NCBI RefSeq assembly: GCF_023336935.1
Contig: NZ_JAMBLR010000003.1
Span: forward strand, 248,001 to 312,000
DNA: 64,000 nt
Reading direction: 5' to 3'
DNA from: Phascolarctobacterium sp. ET69
Lineage (GTDB): Bacteria; Bacillota; Negativicutes; Acidaminococcales; Acidaminococcaceae
Under the pieces are notes generated by a model that was not told where the DNA came from, made no database searches, and worked only from the letters and a program-made list of their open reading frames with translations. This document shows positions 37,764 to 45,090 of this stretch, in pieces. Positions within the stretch are counted from its first letter, which is position 1. Each line of letters opens with the position of its first letter. A program made the translations under genes and the position numbers.

Positions 37764-38576
37764 ATGGCCAAACAAAGTAACCAGAAAGCAAAATTATTAT
37801 ATTTACAAAAATTTTTAACGGAAGAAACGGATGCACAGCACGGCATTACCATTGCCGGGCTTGTTGACAGGCTTGCAGAAGCAGGCATTGCCGCAGAGCG
37901 CAAAAGCCTTTATGACGATATTGAGGTGCTGCGCGCATTCGGCCTGCAAATTGAAACCGTGCGCGGGCGTGCCAACAGTTATAAATTAACCGGCCGCGTA
38001 TTACAGGCGCAGGAGGTTGTTAAAACCGGTTTGGCATTAAAAGCCGCGGGCGTGGAAGGCGCCGAAGCAATTATTGAAAGTTTGTGCGGCTTGCTGAGCA
38101 AATATGACGCAGAAAGCGTTAAAAACGAACTTGCTGTCGCCGTTATGCCGCAGCAGGATAACTCCACCGGCGCAGAAGCGCAGGAAGCACCGGCAGAAGT
38201 GCTGCCCGAAACCGTACCCGAAGCAGTGACGGCAGAAAACGTAAAAGAAGCTGCGCAGCCGGAAAATGACAAAGCGGAAGAAAAATCTGCACCGGAAGCG
38301 AAAAAAGCAGCTGCCGCTAAAGACGCCAGCGCCGCCGAAACCATTGAGCTGAAATGCGCTGCGGACTTGCAGGACGCTGTGCTGTCTTACCTGGGCGCAG
38401 GGGCTAAAATTGTAAAAGTAAAAAGCAGCGGCGTTGTTATAAAAGCAAAAACCGTAATTAACGAAGATTTTTATGCGCAGCTTATTAAATGGGGGGGCGT
38501 AAAATTAAGCGAGCCTTCGGAACGCCGCAAAGAATTTAAAAAATACTGCAAGAAAATCATCAGCCAGTATAAATAA
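37764..38576 (+). CDS. WYL-type transcriptional regulator lacking the WYL core
   Basis: A 270-residue protein that matches the two ends of a WYL-family regulator. The N-terminal winged helix (about 1-100) includes ERKSLYDDIEVLRAFGL and ETVRGRANSYKL, followed by the usual helical segment to LLSKYDAESVK. Instead of the ligand-binding WYL domain there is an Ala/Glu/Pro-rich low-complexity linker of about 65 residues. The C-terminus (about 200-270; INEDFYAQLIKWGGVKLSEP) fits the WCX domain. Start 37764 has AGGTG upstream; the earlier in-frame TTG has none. The target is unknown; it may control the next gene, 13 bases away. Confidence 0.78.
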   Translation: MAKQSNQKAKLLYLQKFLTEETDAQHGITIAGLVDRLAEAGIAAERKSLYDDIEVLRAFGLQIETVRGRANSYKLTGRVLQAQEVVKTGLALKAAGVEGAEAIIESLCGLLSKYDAESVKNELAVAVMPQQDNSTGAEAQEAPAEVLPETVPEAVTAENVKEAAQPENDKAEEKSAPEAKKAAAAKDASAAETIELKCAADLQDAVLSYLGAGAKIVKVKSSGVVIKAKTVINEDFYAQLIKWGGVKLSEPSERRKEFKKYCKKIISQYK

Positions 38577-38589
38577 CGGAGAGTGAAAA

Positions 38590-38967
38590 ATGGAATTTAT
38601 TGAACCGGACCGCAGTAATTATATTGTATCGGCGCATAAGCCCAATGACGAAGGCGTGCGCGACATAGGCTTTGTTAAGGGCACGTTTTTGGACGGCAGG
38701 CCGTACAGGCTGGAATGCTGGTGCATGGACGAGCTTATTATGGCAAGTGTTTTTTTTGACGAGCGTTATTTGACGGCGTGGAAGCGCCTTGATTTTGCGC
38801 TGCTTTTGGAGCTGGAAGGCGTTTTGCAGTTTAAGGACGGGCCTTATTTGCAGGCAGGGCGCATGAAGGACGGCAAGGGGCGCGGCATTTGGGCCGTTAC
38901 CGTTATGCTTAAAGATGATGATGGGCTGCACGCCGAAGTTTTAACGCCCGTGCAGCGTTACAGGTAG
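38590..38967 (+). CDS. Hypothetical protein, 125 residues
   Basis: I do not recognise this protein. It has no signal peptide or membrane segment. The composition is mixed alpha/beta with a cysteine pair in LECWCMDE and a run of strands (DIGFVKGTFLDGRPYRLECW). GGAGAG precedes the ATG and the gap to the WYL-less regulator gene is 13 bases, so the two are probably co-transcribed and functionally connected. The frame has good codon usage for this genome. Confidence 0.7.
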   Translation: MEFIEPDRSNYIVSAHKPNDEGVRDIGFVKGTFLDGRPYRLECWCMDELIMASVFFDERYLTAWKRLDFALLLELEGVLQFKDGPYLQAGRMKDGKGRGIWAVTVMLKDDDGLHAEVLTPVQRYR

Positions 38968-39025: not shown

Positions 39026-39049
39026 TCTTACAATTTGAAAGGAAAGTTA

Positions 39050-39275
39050 AAAGAGTCTTTTCAAAGCGATTATTACGGACCACTCTTTAAGAGTTAAGGC
39101 CATACGGACAGCCGGGTCCACTGCCGATTGACTGCTTTGGGCAGTCCTATTGATTGAGTTAAAAGCTCGAATTTTATAAGTTGGTTATCCATAACTGAAA
39201 TGCGCCAGTGCGCAAACTTGTGAAACGGTCAATACGAGTAGTAAAAGTATAATTGCTATATAGACTCTGACTTAA
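39050..39275 (+). ncRNA. Structured RNA leader of unassigned family
   Basis: A non-coding stretch of about 220 bases whose ends pair perfectly (AGAGTCT 39052-39058 with AGACTCT 39262-39268). Inside are further hairpins: GGACC/GGTCC (39077/39115) enclosing ACTC/GAGT and GGC/GCC; ACTGC/GCAGT (39131/39141); GTTA/TAAC near 39184; GCGC/GCGC (39202/39210). It therefore folds as a multi-branched junction closed by one helix, like a riboswitch aptamer. A terminator (39342-39378) follows before the spermidine operon. It does not match the riboswitch consensus sequences I know (lysine, SAM, cobalamin, M-box, guanidine, T-box). Confidence 0.6.
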
Positions 39276-39341
39276 TCCGAAAGCATATACGCCTTTTTTG
39301 CCTTTATACTTGTTGGCAGAAGGGCTTGAATTTTGGCTGAG

Positions 39342-39378
39342 AACGCAAGTTGTGCATTAGCACGGCTTGCGTTTTTTT
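39342..39378 (+). terminator. Intrinsic terminator between RNA leader and speA
   Basis: AACGCAAG/CTTGCGTT stem with an inner GTGC-ATTA-GCAC helix and seven T. It lies 32 bases before the speA start, so it must be read through for operon expression, or the operon has its own promoter after it. Confidence 0.9.
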
Positions 39379-39409: not shown

Positions 39410-40870
39410 TTGAGGAATAAACGTAACGGTTTAGACCAGAGCCGCGCGCCGATTTACGAAGCGCTGGAGAACTTCCGCCGGATGAGGGTGGTGCCCTTTG
39501 ATGTGCCGGGGCATAAGCGCGGGCGCGGCAACCCGGAGCTGACGGCGTTTTTGGGGCAGGCCTGCGTGGGCGTGGACGTGAACAGCATGAAGCCGCTGGA
39601 TAACCTGTGCCATCCGGTTTCTGTTATCCGCGAGGCGGAGGAGCTGGCGGCGGATGCTTTTGGCGCAGCGCACGCCTTTTTAATGGTAGGCGGCACTACA
39701 AGCTCGGTGCAGAGCATGGTGCTCTCTTCCTGCAAACGCGGGGATGAAATTATTTTGCCGCGCAACGTGCATAAAAGCGTTATTAACGCGCTGGTGCTGT
39801 GCGGCGCGGTGCCGGTGTACGTTAACCCGGAGGTAGACCAGCGCTTGGGCATATCGCTCGGCATGAAGCGCGAACAGGTAGCCAAAGCGATTGCCGAACA
39901 TCCCAAAGCCGTTGCGGTTTTGGTGAACAACCCAACTTATTACGGCATTTGCAGCGATTTGCGCGCTATTGTAAAAATGGCGCACGACGCCGGTATGCTG
40001 TGTTTGGTGGATGAAGCGCACGGCACGCATTTTTATTTCGGCAGCGGCCTGCCGGTATCGGCCATGGAAGCCGGTGCGGATATGGCGTCGGTATCCATGC
40101 ACAAAAGCGGCGGCAGCCTTACGCAGTCCAGCCTGCTGCTGACGGGGCCGAACATTCACGCCGGTTATGTACGGCAGATTATTAACCTTACACAGACCAC
40201 TTCGGGCAGCTACCTTTTAATGTCCAGCCTTGACATCAGCCGCCGCAACTTAGCTTTGCGCGGACGCAAGGTGTTTCACCAGGTGGCGGATATGGCGGAA
40301 TACGCCCGCCGCGAGATTAACGCCGTGGGCGGCTATTATGCTTTTGGGCGCGAGCTGATGAACGGCAATTCCGTATTTGATTTTGACACCACCAAGCTGA
40401 GCGTGCATACGCTGGATATTGGGCTGGCGGGCATTGAAGTGTATGACATTCTGCGCGACGAGTATGACATACAAATTGAGTTCGGCGACATCGGCAACAT
40501 TTTGGCTTATCTTTCCATGGGTGACAGGCCGCAGGAGCTGGAACGCCTGGTGAGCGCGCTGGCGGAGATACGCCGCCGCTACCAAAAGGACGCCACCGGC
40601 ATGCTGACGCAGGAATACATTGAGCCGGAGGTTGTTACCAGCCCGCAGGAAGCGTTTTACGCGCCGAAAATCAGCGTGCCGCTGGCAGAAAGCGAAGGGC
40701 GCGTGTGCAGCGAATTTGTAATGTGCTATCCGCCGGGTATACCTATTTTGGCGCCGGGCGAGCGCATTACCGGCGAAATTTTGGAACATATCGGCTATGC
40801 CAAGGAAAAAGGCTGCAGCATGACGGGTTCAGAAGACCCGGATTTAACACGGATTAACGTGCTGGAATAA
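39410..40870 (+). CDS. speA: Arginine/ornithine/lysine decarboxylase (PLP fold I), probable arginine decarboxylase
   Basis: A 486-residue Orn/Lys/Arg decarboxylase of the short Firmicute type. The PLP lysine is in SMHKSGGSLTQ, and the cofactor pocket includes VDEAHGTHF and VGGTTSSVQSM. A small C-terminal domain ends GYAKEKGCSMTGSEDP. The agmatinase downstream indicates arginine as substrate. The start is TTG at 39410, placed 8 bases after GGGAGG; upstream extensions would enter the terminator. Confidence 0.87.
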   Translation: MRNKRNGLDQSRAPIYEALENFRRMRVVPFDVPGHKRGRGNPELTAFLGQACVGVDVNSMKPLDNLCHPVSVIREAEELAADAFGAAHAFLMVGGTTSSVQSMVLSSCKRGDEIILPRNVHKSVINALVLCGAVPVYVNPEVDQRLGISLGMKREQVAKAIAEHPKAVAVLVNNPTYYGICSDLRAIVKMAHDAGMLCLVDEAHGTHFYFGSGLPVSAMEAGADMASVSMHKSGGSLTQSSLLLTGPNIHAGYVRQIINLTQTTSGSYLLMSSLDISRRNLALRGRKVFHQVADMAEYARREINAVGGYYAFGRELMNGNSVFDFDTTKLSVHTLDIGLAGIEVYDILRDEYDIQIEFGDIGNILAYLSMGDRPQELERLVSALAEIRRRYQKDATGMLTQEYIEPEVVTSPQEAFYAPKISVPLAESEGRVCSEFVMCYPPGIPILAPGERITGEILEHIGYAKEKGCSMTGSEDPDLTRINVLE

Positions 40871-40885: not shown

Positions 40886-41740
40886 ATGGAAATGTGGTTC
40901 AGTGAGTTTCATACCCCGGACGTAAAGCACAGTATTAGGGTTAACAGGCATTTATATTCCAAACAGAGCGATTACCAGCGCATAGACATTTTTGAAACGC
41001 CGGAGTTTGGGCGCGTGCTGACCCTTGACGGCAACGTGATGCTGACTGAAAGGGACGAATTTATTTACGATGAGATGATTACCCATGTGCCGATGGCGGT
41101 GCATCAGGGCATTAAAGATATTTTGGTTATCGGCGCGGGCGACGGCGGCGTTGTGCGCGAGCTGACGCGCTACGACCGTGTGCGCCGCATTGACTTGGTG
41201 GAGATGGACCCACAGGTGGTGGAAGCCTGCCGTACCTATCTGCCCAGCAATGCCTGCCGCATGGATGACCGCCGCGTGCATATTTATTTCGGCAACGCGC
41301 TGAAATTTATCCGCCGCTGCGAGGAAGAATACGATTTGATTATTGTGGATTCCACCGACCCGTTCGGGCCTTCGGAAGGGCTGTTTACGCGTGAGTTTTA
41401 CGGCAGTTGCTTTAACGCGCTGCGCGAGGACGGCATTATGGTGAACCAGCAGGGCAGTCCGTTTTATGCGGAGGACGCTGCGGCTATGCAGCGCAGCCAT
41501 AAACGCATTGCCAGCACCTTCCCCATCAGCAAGGTGTACCAGGCGCATATCCCTACTTATGCCGCCGGTTACTGGCTGTTTGGCTTTGCCAGCAAAAAAT
41601 ACCACCCCATGGACGATTTGGACAGCGAGGCGTGGAACGCTTTGAATATGCACACCCGTTACTACACTACGCGGCTGCATAAAGGGGCGTTTTGCCTGCC
41701 CGCATTTTTGGAAGAAATGCTGAAAGAAGTGGAGGACTGA
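40886..41740 (+). CDS. speE: Spermidine synthase
   Basis: A 284-residue polyamine aminopropyltransferase. The decarboxylated-SAM site is IGAGDGGVVRELTRY and the catalytic aspartate region is IIVDSTDPFGPSEGLF. The N-terminal beta domain (WFSEFHTPDVKHSIRV...TLDGNVMLTERDEF) is typical. It transfers an aminopropyl group from decarboxylated SAM to putrescine. No SAM decarboxylase gene (speD) is visible in the window. GGAGGC precedes the ATG. Confidence 0.94.
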   Translation: MEMWFSEFHTPDVKHSIRVNRHLYSKQSDYQRIDIFETPEFGRVLTLDGNVMLTERDEFIYDEMITHVPMAVHQGIKDILVIGAGDGGVVRELTRYDRVRRIDLVEMDPQVVEACRTYLPSNACRMDDRRVHIYFGNALKFIRRCEEEYDLIIVDSTDPFGPSEGLFTREFYGSCFNALREDGIMVNQQGSPFYAEDAAAMQRSHKRIASTFPISKVYQAHIPTYAAGYWLFGFASKKYHPMDDLDSEAWNALNMHTRYYTTRLHKGAFCLPAFLEEMLKEVED

Positions 41741-41743
41741 GCC

Positions 41744-42598
41744 ATGAAGCCTAATGTGGATAATTTTATCGGCTGTGACAGCGATTATGCCGCTGCGAAA
41801 ATAGTGCTGTACGGCGCACCTTTCGATTCTACCACCAGCTTCCGCCCCGGGGCGCGCTTTGGCCCGGCGTCGATGCGGCACGAAAGCTTTGGACTGGAAA
41901 CTTACAGCCCTTACCAGGATGCCGATTTAACGGACTGCGCCGTGTTTGACAGCGGCGATATGGAGCTGTGCTTCGGCAGTTCGGAAGCCGCTTTGGCGGA
42001 TATTGAAGCGCGCGCGGCAGAGATTTTGGCGGACGGAAAGCTGCCGCTGCTGTTGGGCGGCGAGCACCTTGTAACGCTGGGCGCTGTGCGTGCCGCCGTA
42101 AAAAAATATCCTAACCTGCATATCATCCATTTTGATGCGCATGCCGATTTGCGCGACAATTACCTCGGCGCAAAATTAAGCCATGCCTGTGTTATCCGCC
42201 GCTGCCACGAGCTTGTGGGCGATGGGCGCATCCATCAGTTCTGCATCCGCAGCGGCGAACGCGAAGAATTTGCCTTTGCCAAAGAACATACCCAAATGCA
42301 GAAATTTACTTTTGACGGGCTGGAAGAAACCGTGGCGCAGCTTAAGGCTGACGGCACGCCCGTGTATTTTACGATAGATTTGGATTGCCTTGACCCTGCC
42401 GTTTTTGCGGGCACCGGCACGCCGGAAGCTGGCGGCGTAAGTTTTGTACAGCTGTTGGCTGCACTGCGCTGCGTGTGTACGGCCAACGTAATCGGCGCGG
42501 ACGTAAACGAGCTGGCACCGATGCTGGACGCCAGCGGCGTATCGACCGCTACGGCCTGCAAAGTTTTGAGGGAATTGCTTTTAGCATTGCATAAATAA
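41744..42598 (+). CDS. speB: Agmatinase
   Basis: A 284-residue ureohydrolase that converts agmatine to putrescine and urea. Mn2+ ligand motifs are LLGGEHLV, HFDAHADLRD and TIDLDCLDPA. The gene is 3 bases after speE, and together with SpeA it gives the arginine-to-putrescine route. Confidence 0.94.
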   Translation: MKPNVDNFIGCDSDYAAAKIVLYGAPFDSTTSFRPGARFGPASMRHESFGLETYSPYQDADLTDCAVFDSGDMELCFGSSEAALADIEARAAEILADGKLPLLLGGEHLVTLGAVRAAVKKYPNLHIIHFDAHADLRDNYLGAKLSHACVIRRCHELVGDGRIHQFCIRSGEREEFAFAKEHTQMQKFTFDGLEETVAQLKADGTPVYFTIDLDCLDPAVFAGTGTPEAGGVSFVQLLAALRCVCTANVIGADVNELAPMLDASGVSTATACKVLRELLLALHK

Positions 42599-42619: not shown

Positions 42620-43879
42620 ATGAGTAAAGTTCTTGTTATCGGTTGCGGCGGCGTTGCTACCGTTGCCATCCACAAATGCTGCCAGGTGAGCGAAATTTTT
42701 ACGGAGCTGTGCATTGCCAGCCGTACCAAAGCCAAATGCGATAAGCTCGCGGCAGAACTGCAAGGCAAAACCGCCACCAAAATTACCACAGCGCAGGTGG
42801 ATGCCGACGATGTTGAACAGCTGAAAGCGCTGATTAATGAATACAAACCCGACCTTGTAATGAACATTGCCTTGCCGTACCAGGATTTAACGGTTATGGA
42901 TGCATGCCTAGCCTGCGGCGTAAATTATATGGATACCGCCAACTACGAACCGGAAAACACCGATGACCCCGAATGGCGCGCCGTTTACGAAAAACGCTGC
43001 AAAGAAGCAGGCTTCAGCGCCTATTTTGATTACAGCTGGCAATGGGCATACCGCAAAAAATTTGAAGAAGCGGGCCTTACCGCGCTGTTGGGCTGCGGTT
43101 TTGACCCGGGCGTAACGCAGGCTTACTGCGCTTATGCCAAAAAACACGAGTTCGACACCATCGATACTATTGATATTTTGGACTGCAACGGCGGCGACCA
43201 CGGTTATGCCTTCGCCACCAACTTCAACCCCGAGGTTAACCTGCGCGAAGTATCTGCCCCTGGCAGCTATTGGGAAAACGGCAAATGGGTAGAAATTCCT
43301 GCTATGAGCATTAAGCGCGAATATGATTTTGACCAGGTTGGGCATAAGGATATGTACCTTCTGCACCACGAAGAAATTGAAAGCCTGGCGCTGAACATTC
43401 CCGAAGTAAAACGCATCCGCTTCTTTATGACCTTTGGGCAGAGCTACCTTGACCATATGCGCTGCCTGGAAAACGTAGGCATGCTTTCTACAACGCCGGT
43501 AATGTTTGAAGGGCACGAAATTGTGCCGATTAAATTTTTGAAAGCCCTGCTGCCCGACCCGGCAAGCCTTGGCCCTCGTACTAAGGGCAAAACCAATATC
43601 GGCTGCATTTTTACCGGCAAAAAAGACGGCAAAGATAAAACCTACTATATTTACAACGTGTGCGACCACGAAGAATGCTACAAAGAAGTCGGCAGCCAGG
43701 CAGTAAGCTACACCACCGGCGTACCTGCTATGTGCGGCGCAATGATGCTGCTGACCGGCAAATGGAACAAACCCGGCGTGTACACCGTGGAAGAGTTTGA
43801 CCCGGACCCGTTCCTGGACGCGCTGGATAAATACGGCCTGCCCAGAAGCGAAAGCTATGCCCCGGTGCTGGTAGACTGA
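42620..43879 (+). CDS. Carboxynorspermidine/carboxyspermidine dehydrogenase (saccharopine dehydrogenase family)
   Basis: A 419-residue NAD(P)H-dependent enzyme with an N-terminal Rossmann motif (VLVIGCGGVATVAIHKC) and the saccharopine-dehydrogenase fold. CANSDH couples aspartate semialdehyde with putrescine or diaminopropane to give carboxy(nor)spermidine. The assignment rests on fold plus the adjacent nspC. The substrate here should be putrescine, since the operon makes it. Confidence 0.9.
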   Translation: MSKVLVIGCGGVATVAIHKCCQVSEIFTELCIASRTKAKCDKLAAELQGKTATKITTAQVDADDVEQLKALINEYKPDLVMNIALPYQDLTVMDACLACGVNYMDTANYEPENTDDPEWRAVYEKRCKEAGFSAYFDYSWQWAYRKKFEEAGLTALLGCGFDPGVTQAYCAYAKKHEFDTIDTIDILDCNGGDHGYAFATNFNPEVNLREVSAPGSYWENGKWVEIPAMSIKREYDFDQVGHKDMYLLHHEEIESLALNIPEVKRIRFFMTFGQSYLDHMRCLENVGMLSTTPVMFEGHEIVPIKFLKALLPDPASLGPRTKGKTNIGCIFTGKKDGKDKTYYIYNVCDHEECYKEVGSQAVSYTTGVPAMCGAMMLLTGKWNKPGVYTVEEFDPDPFLDALDKYGLPRSESYAPVLVD

Positions 43880-45090
43880 TGGGCGTTTTAACTAAAGACA
43901 GCCGCCCGCAGTTTGCCGGGCTGCGCGGTAAGCTGCCGCAGGAAGTTTTTGGCAGCCTGCCCACGCCCTGTTATATTTTGGACGAAGTGATGCTGAAGCA
44001 CAACGGCGAAATTTTGGCGGGCGTGGCGGCGCGTACGGGCTGTAAAATTTTGCTGGCGCAGAAGGCGTTCAGCAACTACGATTTATACCCGGTGCTTGCG
44101 TCTTACCTTGCCGGTACGGAAGCCAGTGGTTTGTACGAGGCACGCCTTGGCGCGGAAGAAATGCCCGGCAAGGAAGTACACGTTTTTTGCGACGCTTACC
44201 GTGAGGACGAGTTTTACGAACTGTTAAAATACGCGGGGCATATCGTGTTTAATTCTCCGCGCCAGCTGGCAAAATACGGCGCCGCTGCCAAACAGGCGGG
44301 CAAAAGCGTGGGCCTGCGCATTAACCCGGAATGCTCTACGCAGGAAGGGCACGCCATTTACGACCCCTGCGCTCCCGGCAGCCGCATGGGCACCACCCGC
44401 GCGCAGTGGGATGAGCAAATGACGCCGGAGCTTGCGGCGATGCTGGATGGCTTGCATTTCCACACGCTGTGCGAGCAGGATGCCGGTGACTTGGAAATAA
44501 CTTTACAAGCCGTTGAACAGCGTTTCGGCGATGTGCTGCCCAAAATGCAGTGGCTTAATTTTGGCGGCGGGCACCATATTACCCGCCCCGGTTATAACAT
44601 CAGCCTGCTGGAACGATGCATTAATTATGCGCAGCAAAAATGGGGTGTAACCGTGTACTTGGAACCTGGCGAAGCCTGCGCTTTAAACGCCGGTTACTTG
44701 GCAACGCGCGTACTGGATATAATCAAAAACGGCAGCACCAATATCGCGATACTTGATACCAGTGCTGCCTGCCACATGCCCGATGTTTTAGAAATGCCCT
44801 ACCGTCCGCCGCTGTACGGCGCAGGCGACGCCGCAGAAAAAAGTTATACCTGCCGTTTGGGCAGCCAAACCTGCCTTGCGGGAGATGTTATCGGCGATTA
44901 CAGCTTTGACGCGCCGCTTGGCGAAGGCGATATGCTTTTGTTTGGCGATATGGCAATTTACACTACCTGCAAAAACAATACCTTTAACGGCATGCCGCTG
45001 CCTGCCATTTATTCATATACGGCATCAGGGCAGCTTAAGCTGATTAAAAAATTTAACTATAACGATTTTAAAAACCGCTTGGGCAGATAA
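43879..45090 (+). CDS. nspC: Carboxynorspermidine decarboxylase
   Basis: A 403-residue fold-III PLP decarboxylase (alanine racemase-like barrel) with the lysine in KILLAQKAFSNYD, the Gly-rich phosphate site LNFGGGHHITRPGY, EPGEACAL, and C-terminal ETAYY-type CLAGDVIGDYSF. It decarboxylates carboxy(nor)spermidine to (nor)spermidine. It overlaps the previous gene by one base, and a terminator follows, closing the five-gene operon. Confidence 0.93.
   Translation: MGVLTKDSRPQFAGLRGKLPQEVFGSLPTPCYILDEVMLKHNGEILAGVAARTGCKILLAQKAFSNYDLYPVLASYLAGTEASGLYEARLGAEEMPGKEVHVFCDAYREDEFYELLKYAGHIVFNSPRQLAKYGAAAKQAGKSVGLRINPECSTQEGHAIYDPCAPGSRMGTTRAQWDEQMTPELAAMLDGLHFHTLCEQDAGDLEITLQAVEQRFGDVLPKMQWLNFGGGHHITRPGYNISLLERCINYAQQKWGVTVYLEPGEACALNAGYLATRVLDIIKNGSTNIAILDTSAACHMPDVLEMPYRPPLYGAGDAAEKSYTCRLGSQTCLAGDVIGDYSFDAPLGEGDMLLFGDMAIYTTCKNNTFNGMPLPAIYSYTASGQLKLIKKFNYNDFKNRLGR

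Follow-up and report, generated by a model that had tools for sequence, protein, structure and literature searches.

Among the closest described systems is the published spermidine riboswitch, a SAM-I variant of four-stem architecture with 13 representatives in that study's alignment, which controls ldcC, speE, speB and related genes and turns them off via exchange between an antiterminator and a terminator (PMC10853860); its authors state that more classes remain for discovery (PMC10853860). Other structured leaders are known from the same branch of metabolism, among them the odc1 motif, which precedes an ornithine decarboxylase gene and is described as a pseudoknot with a uORF (PMC8632094), and the ABC-leader of Pasteurellaceae, a putative transcription attenuator upstream of potABCD (PMC2965389). 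Rfam also holds RF02440 (SpF59_sRNA, alias ldcC RNA), a 54-nt model typed "Gene; sRNA" and taken from the Streptococcus sRNA SpF59.

The leader described here lies upstream of a polyamine operon in the window, a stretch of 64,000 nucleotides from Phascolarctobacterium sp. ET69 to which all coordinates refer; all features are on the plus strand. The conserved RNA as a whole spans 39065-39257 (covariance model R1, 188 bits, E 5.6e-47). It has target genes and an OFF logic, the latter known here from anatomy only, in common with the SAM-I-type spermidine riboswitch, but differs from it in fold and sequence, is about twice its size and has a much wider range. SAM-I (RF00162) gave no match up to an E value of 10 between positions 38000 and 40500 of the window, and at 20 homologous loci the RNA had none either; the present RNA resembles that class in function but stands outside it. 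The odc1 motif is likewise a structured RNA before a decarboxylase gene but has no apparent relation in sequence or fold to the present one (PMC8632094), and the ABC-leader likewise precedes potABCD but belongs to Gammaproteobacteria (PMC2965389).

A cmscan search against Rfam, which the sequence-only reading had suggested, returned RF02440 at 39077-39127 (51 nt; score 70.9 bits, threshold 37.2; model positions 1-54 fully covered). That reading had seen no conserved core of a known riboswitch, which was right as far as riboswitches go but overlooked this match. Besides RF02440, Rfam was without a match over the RNA of the window, including SAM, lysine, glycine, T-box and 6S, so that neither the 6S RNA named earlier nor any other housekeeping RNA is matched here; at 20 homologous loci, the RNA likewise matched no further family, SAM-I, T-box and lysine riboswitches included. 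Domain 1 of the RNA, here and in most homologues, matches the 54-nt model over its full length, but the model ends there and contains neither P1 and P6 nor domain 2 (P7-P11), nor the invariant 3' segment or the expression platform. Conservation among homologues extends over approximately 230 nt, which makes the RNA about four times the size of RF02440, and whereas the entry is typed as an sRNA, the present RNA is a cis leader, not a free-standing sRNA, at every usable locus that we sampled. By score the RNA falls within RF02440, but the entry represents a piece of a larger cis-regulatory RNA, and its sRNA label is at odds with the cis context. No description of the complete RNA turned up in the open-access literature searched; subscription papers lay outside this coverage and may contain one.

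Fold of the leader and its covariation

The minimum free energy fold of the leader has -112.6 kcal/mol, compared with -84.5 kcal/mol for shuffled sequences (z = -5.7; none of 100 shuffles equally stable). Part of this structure is the outer closing helix, AGAGUCU (39052-39058) with AGACUCU (39262-39268), 210 bases apart, just as read from the letters of the window, and the "at least five" inner hairpins of the same reading turned out to be six (P3, P4, P6, P8, P10 and P11). Just inside the outer closing helix lies P1, an inner closing helix (GCGATTAT/ATAATTGC; 39066-39073 with 39249-39256), which is better conserved than the outer one and in which all eight pairs have changed on both sides. 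The 5' hairpin P0 (TTTGAAAG...CTTTTCAAA, 39034-39065), found in the folds of many leaders and in a constrained fold of the window leader, is a probable alternative to the outer closing helix, since the two have bases in common.

Domain 1 (39077-39127), supported by covariation and including the Rfam match, consists of P2 (39077-39081/39115-39119; both-sided changes in 48 sequences), P3 (39082-39085/39091-39094; R1 and RNAalifold) and P4 (39098-39100/39111-39113; a GC-to-CG flip in 11 sequences), the loop of P4, CATACGGACA, being near-invariant among homologues. The invariant loop bases ACGG and the equally invariant TGCCG that follows (39098-39126) could pair as CGG/CCG, a candidate tertiary contact. 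The hairpin P6 (GACTGC/GCAGTC, 39130-39146) shows compensatory changes in six of its six pairs and is also found by RNAalifold on the unfitted alignment. Domain 2 (39148-39234), delimited by covariation, is built of P7 (39148-39155/39227-39234), which encloses P8 (39156-39158/39166-39168) and P9 (39172-39181/39216-39225), the latter enclosing in turn P10 (39184-39187/39192-39195) and P11 (39201-39205/39210-39214); all five helices come from the covariation model, and P7 and P8 from RNAalifold as well. The P8 loop carries long additional hairpin insertions in two leaders (L133 and L077) and thus tolerates additions. A near-invariant 3' segment (CGAGTAGTAAAAGT...TTGCTATATAGACTCT, 39235-39268), apparent from both the alignment of homologues and RNAalifold, reads GAGTAGTAAAAGT...TTGCTATATAGACTCT after domain 2. 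Within it a local pairing, P12 (GAGT/ACTC), is possible, and because this 3' strand is invariant, covariation does not rank P12 against the outer closing helix.

Covariation among homologous leaders, which had been named as a check, is present. The covariance model R1 has 196 positions and 55 pairs, 41 of which show changes on both sides in an alignment of 100 matches; standard pairs fill 93.1% of the cells, compared with 32-41% in slid controls, and both-sided changes amount to 538 cells, whereas shuffles give 164 and sliding by 1-3 columns gives 58-125. As this alignment was fitted to the model, such counts favor it, and two independent tests therefore matter. (i) RNAalifold, run on an unfitted MAFFT alignment, predicted P3, P6, P7 and P8 independently, with strong covariation in P3 and P6 and a mostly invariant P7. 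(ii) On raw segments, the two strands of P1 pair better within a leader than between leaders (-6.4 versus -4.2 kcal/mol, z -11.6), and in the outer closing helix the 5' segment likewise prefers the 3' tail of the same leader to those of other leaders (-13.0 versus -10.0 kcal/mol, z -12.3); both signals persist after dereplication to 80, 70 and 65% identity. The leader has, as a riboswitch does, a conserved, covarying aptamer fold. From Acidaminococcaceae to Paenibacillus, many of its unpaired positions hardly vary, a pattern typical of a ligand pocket.

Gene context, spread and reduced forms

In the window, the RNA is followed by speA (39410-40870), which encodes an Orn/Lys/Arg-type decarboxylase from a TTG start and is the first regulated gene, then by speE for a polyamine aminopropyltransferase (spermidine synthase; 40886-41740), speB for agmatinase (41744-42598), a gene for a carboxynorspermidine synthase-like protein (CANSDH; 42620-43879; best NCBIfam model NF043000, below its cut-off) and nspC for carboxynorspermidine decarboxylase (CANSDC; 43879-45090). 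The open reading frame immediately before the leader (38590-38967; 125 aa) has no NCBIfam match, and a sigma-70 promoter scan upstream of the leader found none on the plus strand at a spacing of 16-18. A second speA-like decarboxylase of the same genome, approximately 38% identical and located outside the window (G000:C2:146769-148211), has no such leader.

Homologues were gathered from RF02440 matches and with an exact pattern over named genomes, the pattern alone giving at least 116 loci, and occur in Acidaminococcus, Phascolarctobacterium, Faecalibacterium, Blautia, Flavonifractor, Paenibacillus, Bacillus, Neobacillus and others. Among 399 Bacillota genomes, R1 matched 22, a model of domain 2 (R2) 25 and RF02440 18; phage and viral contigs gave no match, and the plasmid search found the RNA on one Paenibacillus megaplasmid. 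One copy stands upstream of speD-speA in a metagenome-assembled genome labeled Spirochaetes (L086), where transfer or mis-binning is possible. We sampled 157 loci, a few of them the same genome via two collections, and eight ended too early; at all 149 usable loci, without exception, the next gene on the same strand belongs to polyamine synthesis or uptake, namely speA (65), speD (42), the carboxynorspermidine synthase gene (26; first after the RNA in Bacillus and Paenibacillus), potA of the potABCD transporter (15) or speE (1). In the family of the window, 19 of 59 genomes have the RNA; these are 19 of the 21 genomes that carry the orthologous speA (at least 68% identical), and the RNA occurs in none of the 38 genomes that are without it. 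The two exceptions (G019, locus L215, and G020, locus L216) have speD-speA and no leader RNA, a natural loss.

Several leaders are reduced or divergent. Two from one genus, upstream of speD-speA (L196 and L199, around positions 1500-1700 of each locus), are miniatures of approximately 100 nt, in which a short helix (ACCAA/UUGGU or ACCG/CGGU) replaces domain 1 and most of domain 2, while P1, ACTTGTGAA, GGTCAATAAGAGTAGTAAAAGT (GGTAAATAAGAG in L199), TATATAGACTCT and a terminator-like arm are retained. With P1 and the near-invariant 3' segment remaining, the regulation-like parts are kept, and these miniatures may represent a minimal sensing core. In two others (L145 and L151), a GCCC-type domain 1 is kept, domain 2 is unrecognizable and a terminator-like hairpin stands before speA; the two domains seem to have been lost independently of each other. 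L170 and L172 keep domain 2 and have a changed domain 1. Together with L174 and L175, the last two form a set, upstream of speA or speD and missed by Rfam, in which the SpF59 core is altered or missing and domain 2 or its 3' segment is conserved. The motif CAATAAGAGTAGTAAAAGTA occurs in 14 of the 399 genomes, always within one of these leaders.

Terminator, antiterminator and the proposed switch

The strong terminator recognized earlier 32 bases before the speA start is an intrinsic terminator (39339-39378) with a 17-pair stem (39339-39376) and a T tract, and a terminator-like hairpin with T tract lies between RNA and gene in 113 of 133 homologous leaders. Its 5' arm, CGCAAGUUGUGC (39344-39355), is at the same time the right strand of an antiterminator, whose left strand (GCGC.AACUUGUG, 39210-39222) consists of the 3' strands of P11 and P9; the two strands pair with -14.7 kcal/mol. 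Across homologues, this strand on average pairs better with its own terminator than with those of other leaders (-10.98 versus -9.32 kcal/mol, sd 0.21, none of 5,000 permutations), and after dereplication at most 4 of 3,000 permutations do as well. The partners covary, for example as ACATCACTTGT with ACAGGTGATGT in L014, GCAGACTTG with CAGGTCTGC in L104 and GCTTGC with GCAAGC in L005. In the nascent RNA, before the right arm of the terminator is made, the aptamer and antiterminator states of the window leader are near-isoenergetic (+0.6 kcal/mol), the difference ranging from -8.8 to +7.1 kcal/mol in 16 leaders; once that arm is present, the terminator state is favored by 5-22 kcal/mol. When the window leader was folded under constraint, P0 appeared in the antiterminator state alone, in place of the outer closing helix, and this one fold suggests that the 5' end may join in the switching. 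The leader possesses, as riboswitches do, an expression platform that is mutually exclusive with the aptamer.

We consider it likely that this cis-acting leader is a transcriptional OFF switch of genes for polyamine synthesis and uptake, and that it works as a riboswitch for spermidine or a closely similar polyamine. When polyamine is scarce, the 3' strands of P9 and P11 (39210-39222) would base-pair with the terminator's left arm (39344-39355), which would block the terminator and let the polymerase read into speA. Abundant polyamine would stabilize the aptamer closed by P1, P7 and P9 and hold the switching strands inside it, whereupon the terminator (39339-39378) would form and transcription would stop. 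It is from this anatomy that we infer the sign of the switch: since the antiterminator is made of aptamer strands, stabilization of the aptamer must favor termination. The riboswitch or attenuator of a polyamine operon envisaged in the sequence-only reading is supported by the covariation, the exclusive association with polyamine genes and the covarying antiterminator and terminator. A leader-peptide mechanism is made less likely by covariation along the entire leader and by indels of every length.

The signal and its alternatives

A spermidine-like ligand, deduced from the pathway, and the RNA itself as the sensor appear most likely. Intracellular spermidine or a near relative is the only common product of speA/speB/speE together with speD, of CANSDH/CANSDC and of the PotABCD importer, and spermidine feedback is the one signal compatible with speA, speD, CANSDH/CANSDC and potABCD alike. 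A related signal, such as putrescine, agmatine, aminopropylcadaverine, norspermidine, arginine, lysine or SAM, is doubtful as the ligand, even though the operon encodes steps that use putrescine, agmatine and dcSAM, and RF02440 bears the name ldcC RNA, lysine decarboxylases belonging to the same enzyme family. Four on the earlier list of candidates, SAM, arginine, lysine and agmatine, are unlikely, as they would leave control of CANSDH/CANSDC alone or of potABCD unexplained: none of them is used by carboxynorspermidine synthase or potABCD, both of which the RNA also precedes. Putrescine is a substrate of some of the regulated genes and a product of others. What stands of that list is the polyamine end product, and the present evidence is equally compatible with spermidine and with a close analogue of it.

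That the leader is an attenuator read by a protein, or an mRNA structure that responds to general effects of polyamines or magnesium on folding without a selective pocket, seems improbable to us. The anatomy of antiterminator and terminator is silent on what stabilizes the aptamer side, but the near-invariant unpaired bases and a multidomain fold of 230 nt exceed what a protein-binding hairpin or a nonspecific sensor would need. Polyamines bind RNA unspecifically, so that selectivity is a real question for the riboswitch favored here. They are reported to stabilize RNA folds generally (PMC10853860), as the general-effect reading would have it. Several points weigh against a riboswitch: the signal may come from a protein or from a different small molecule, the reduced variants (L196, L199, L145 and L151) leave more than one part of the RNA as a candidate binding site, and the operons of G019 and G020 are without the RNA. 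An independent trans-acting sRNA released by the terminator, as filed in Rfam and as raised alongside the riboswitch in the sequence-only reading, is very improbable: a terminated leader of approximately 340 nt would indeed appear as a small RNA, and RF02440 is typed accordingly, but the RNA stands directly upstream of polyamine genes, on the same strand, in 149 of 149 sampled loci, it is absent in the family of the window where the operon is absent, and complementarity to its own terminator makes sense only in cis.

To conclude, the RNA is a widespread cis-regulatory leader and probably represents an undescribed class of polyamine riboswitch. On balance, we favor the view that it is a second class of polyamine (spermidine) riboswitch, independent of the first in structure and far more widespread, of approximately 230 nt in two separable domains and with natural miniatures near 100 nt, which lies behind a truncated 54-nt sRNA entry and would govern polyamine synthesis by two pathways as well as uptake across the Bacillota. 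An existing Rfam sRNA entry thereby turns out to be a piece of a cis-regulatory RNA. The RNA bears on whether polyamine riboswitches extend beyond one rare SAM-I variant: with its defined fold, defined switching strands and several natural deletions, it makes this directly testable, as a concrete candidate that is common among the Bacillota of gut and soil (Acidaminococcus, Phascolarctobacterium, Faecalibacterium, Blautia, Paenibacillus and Bacillus).
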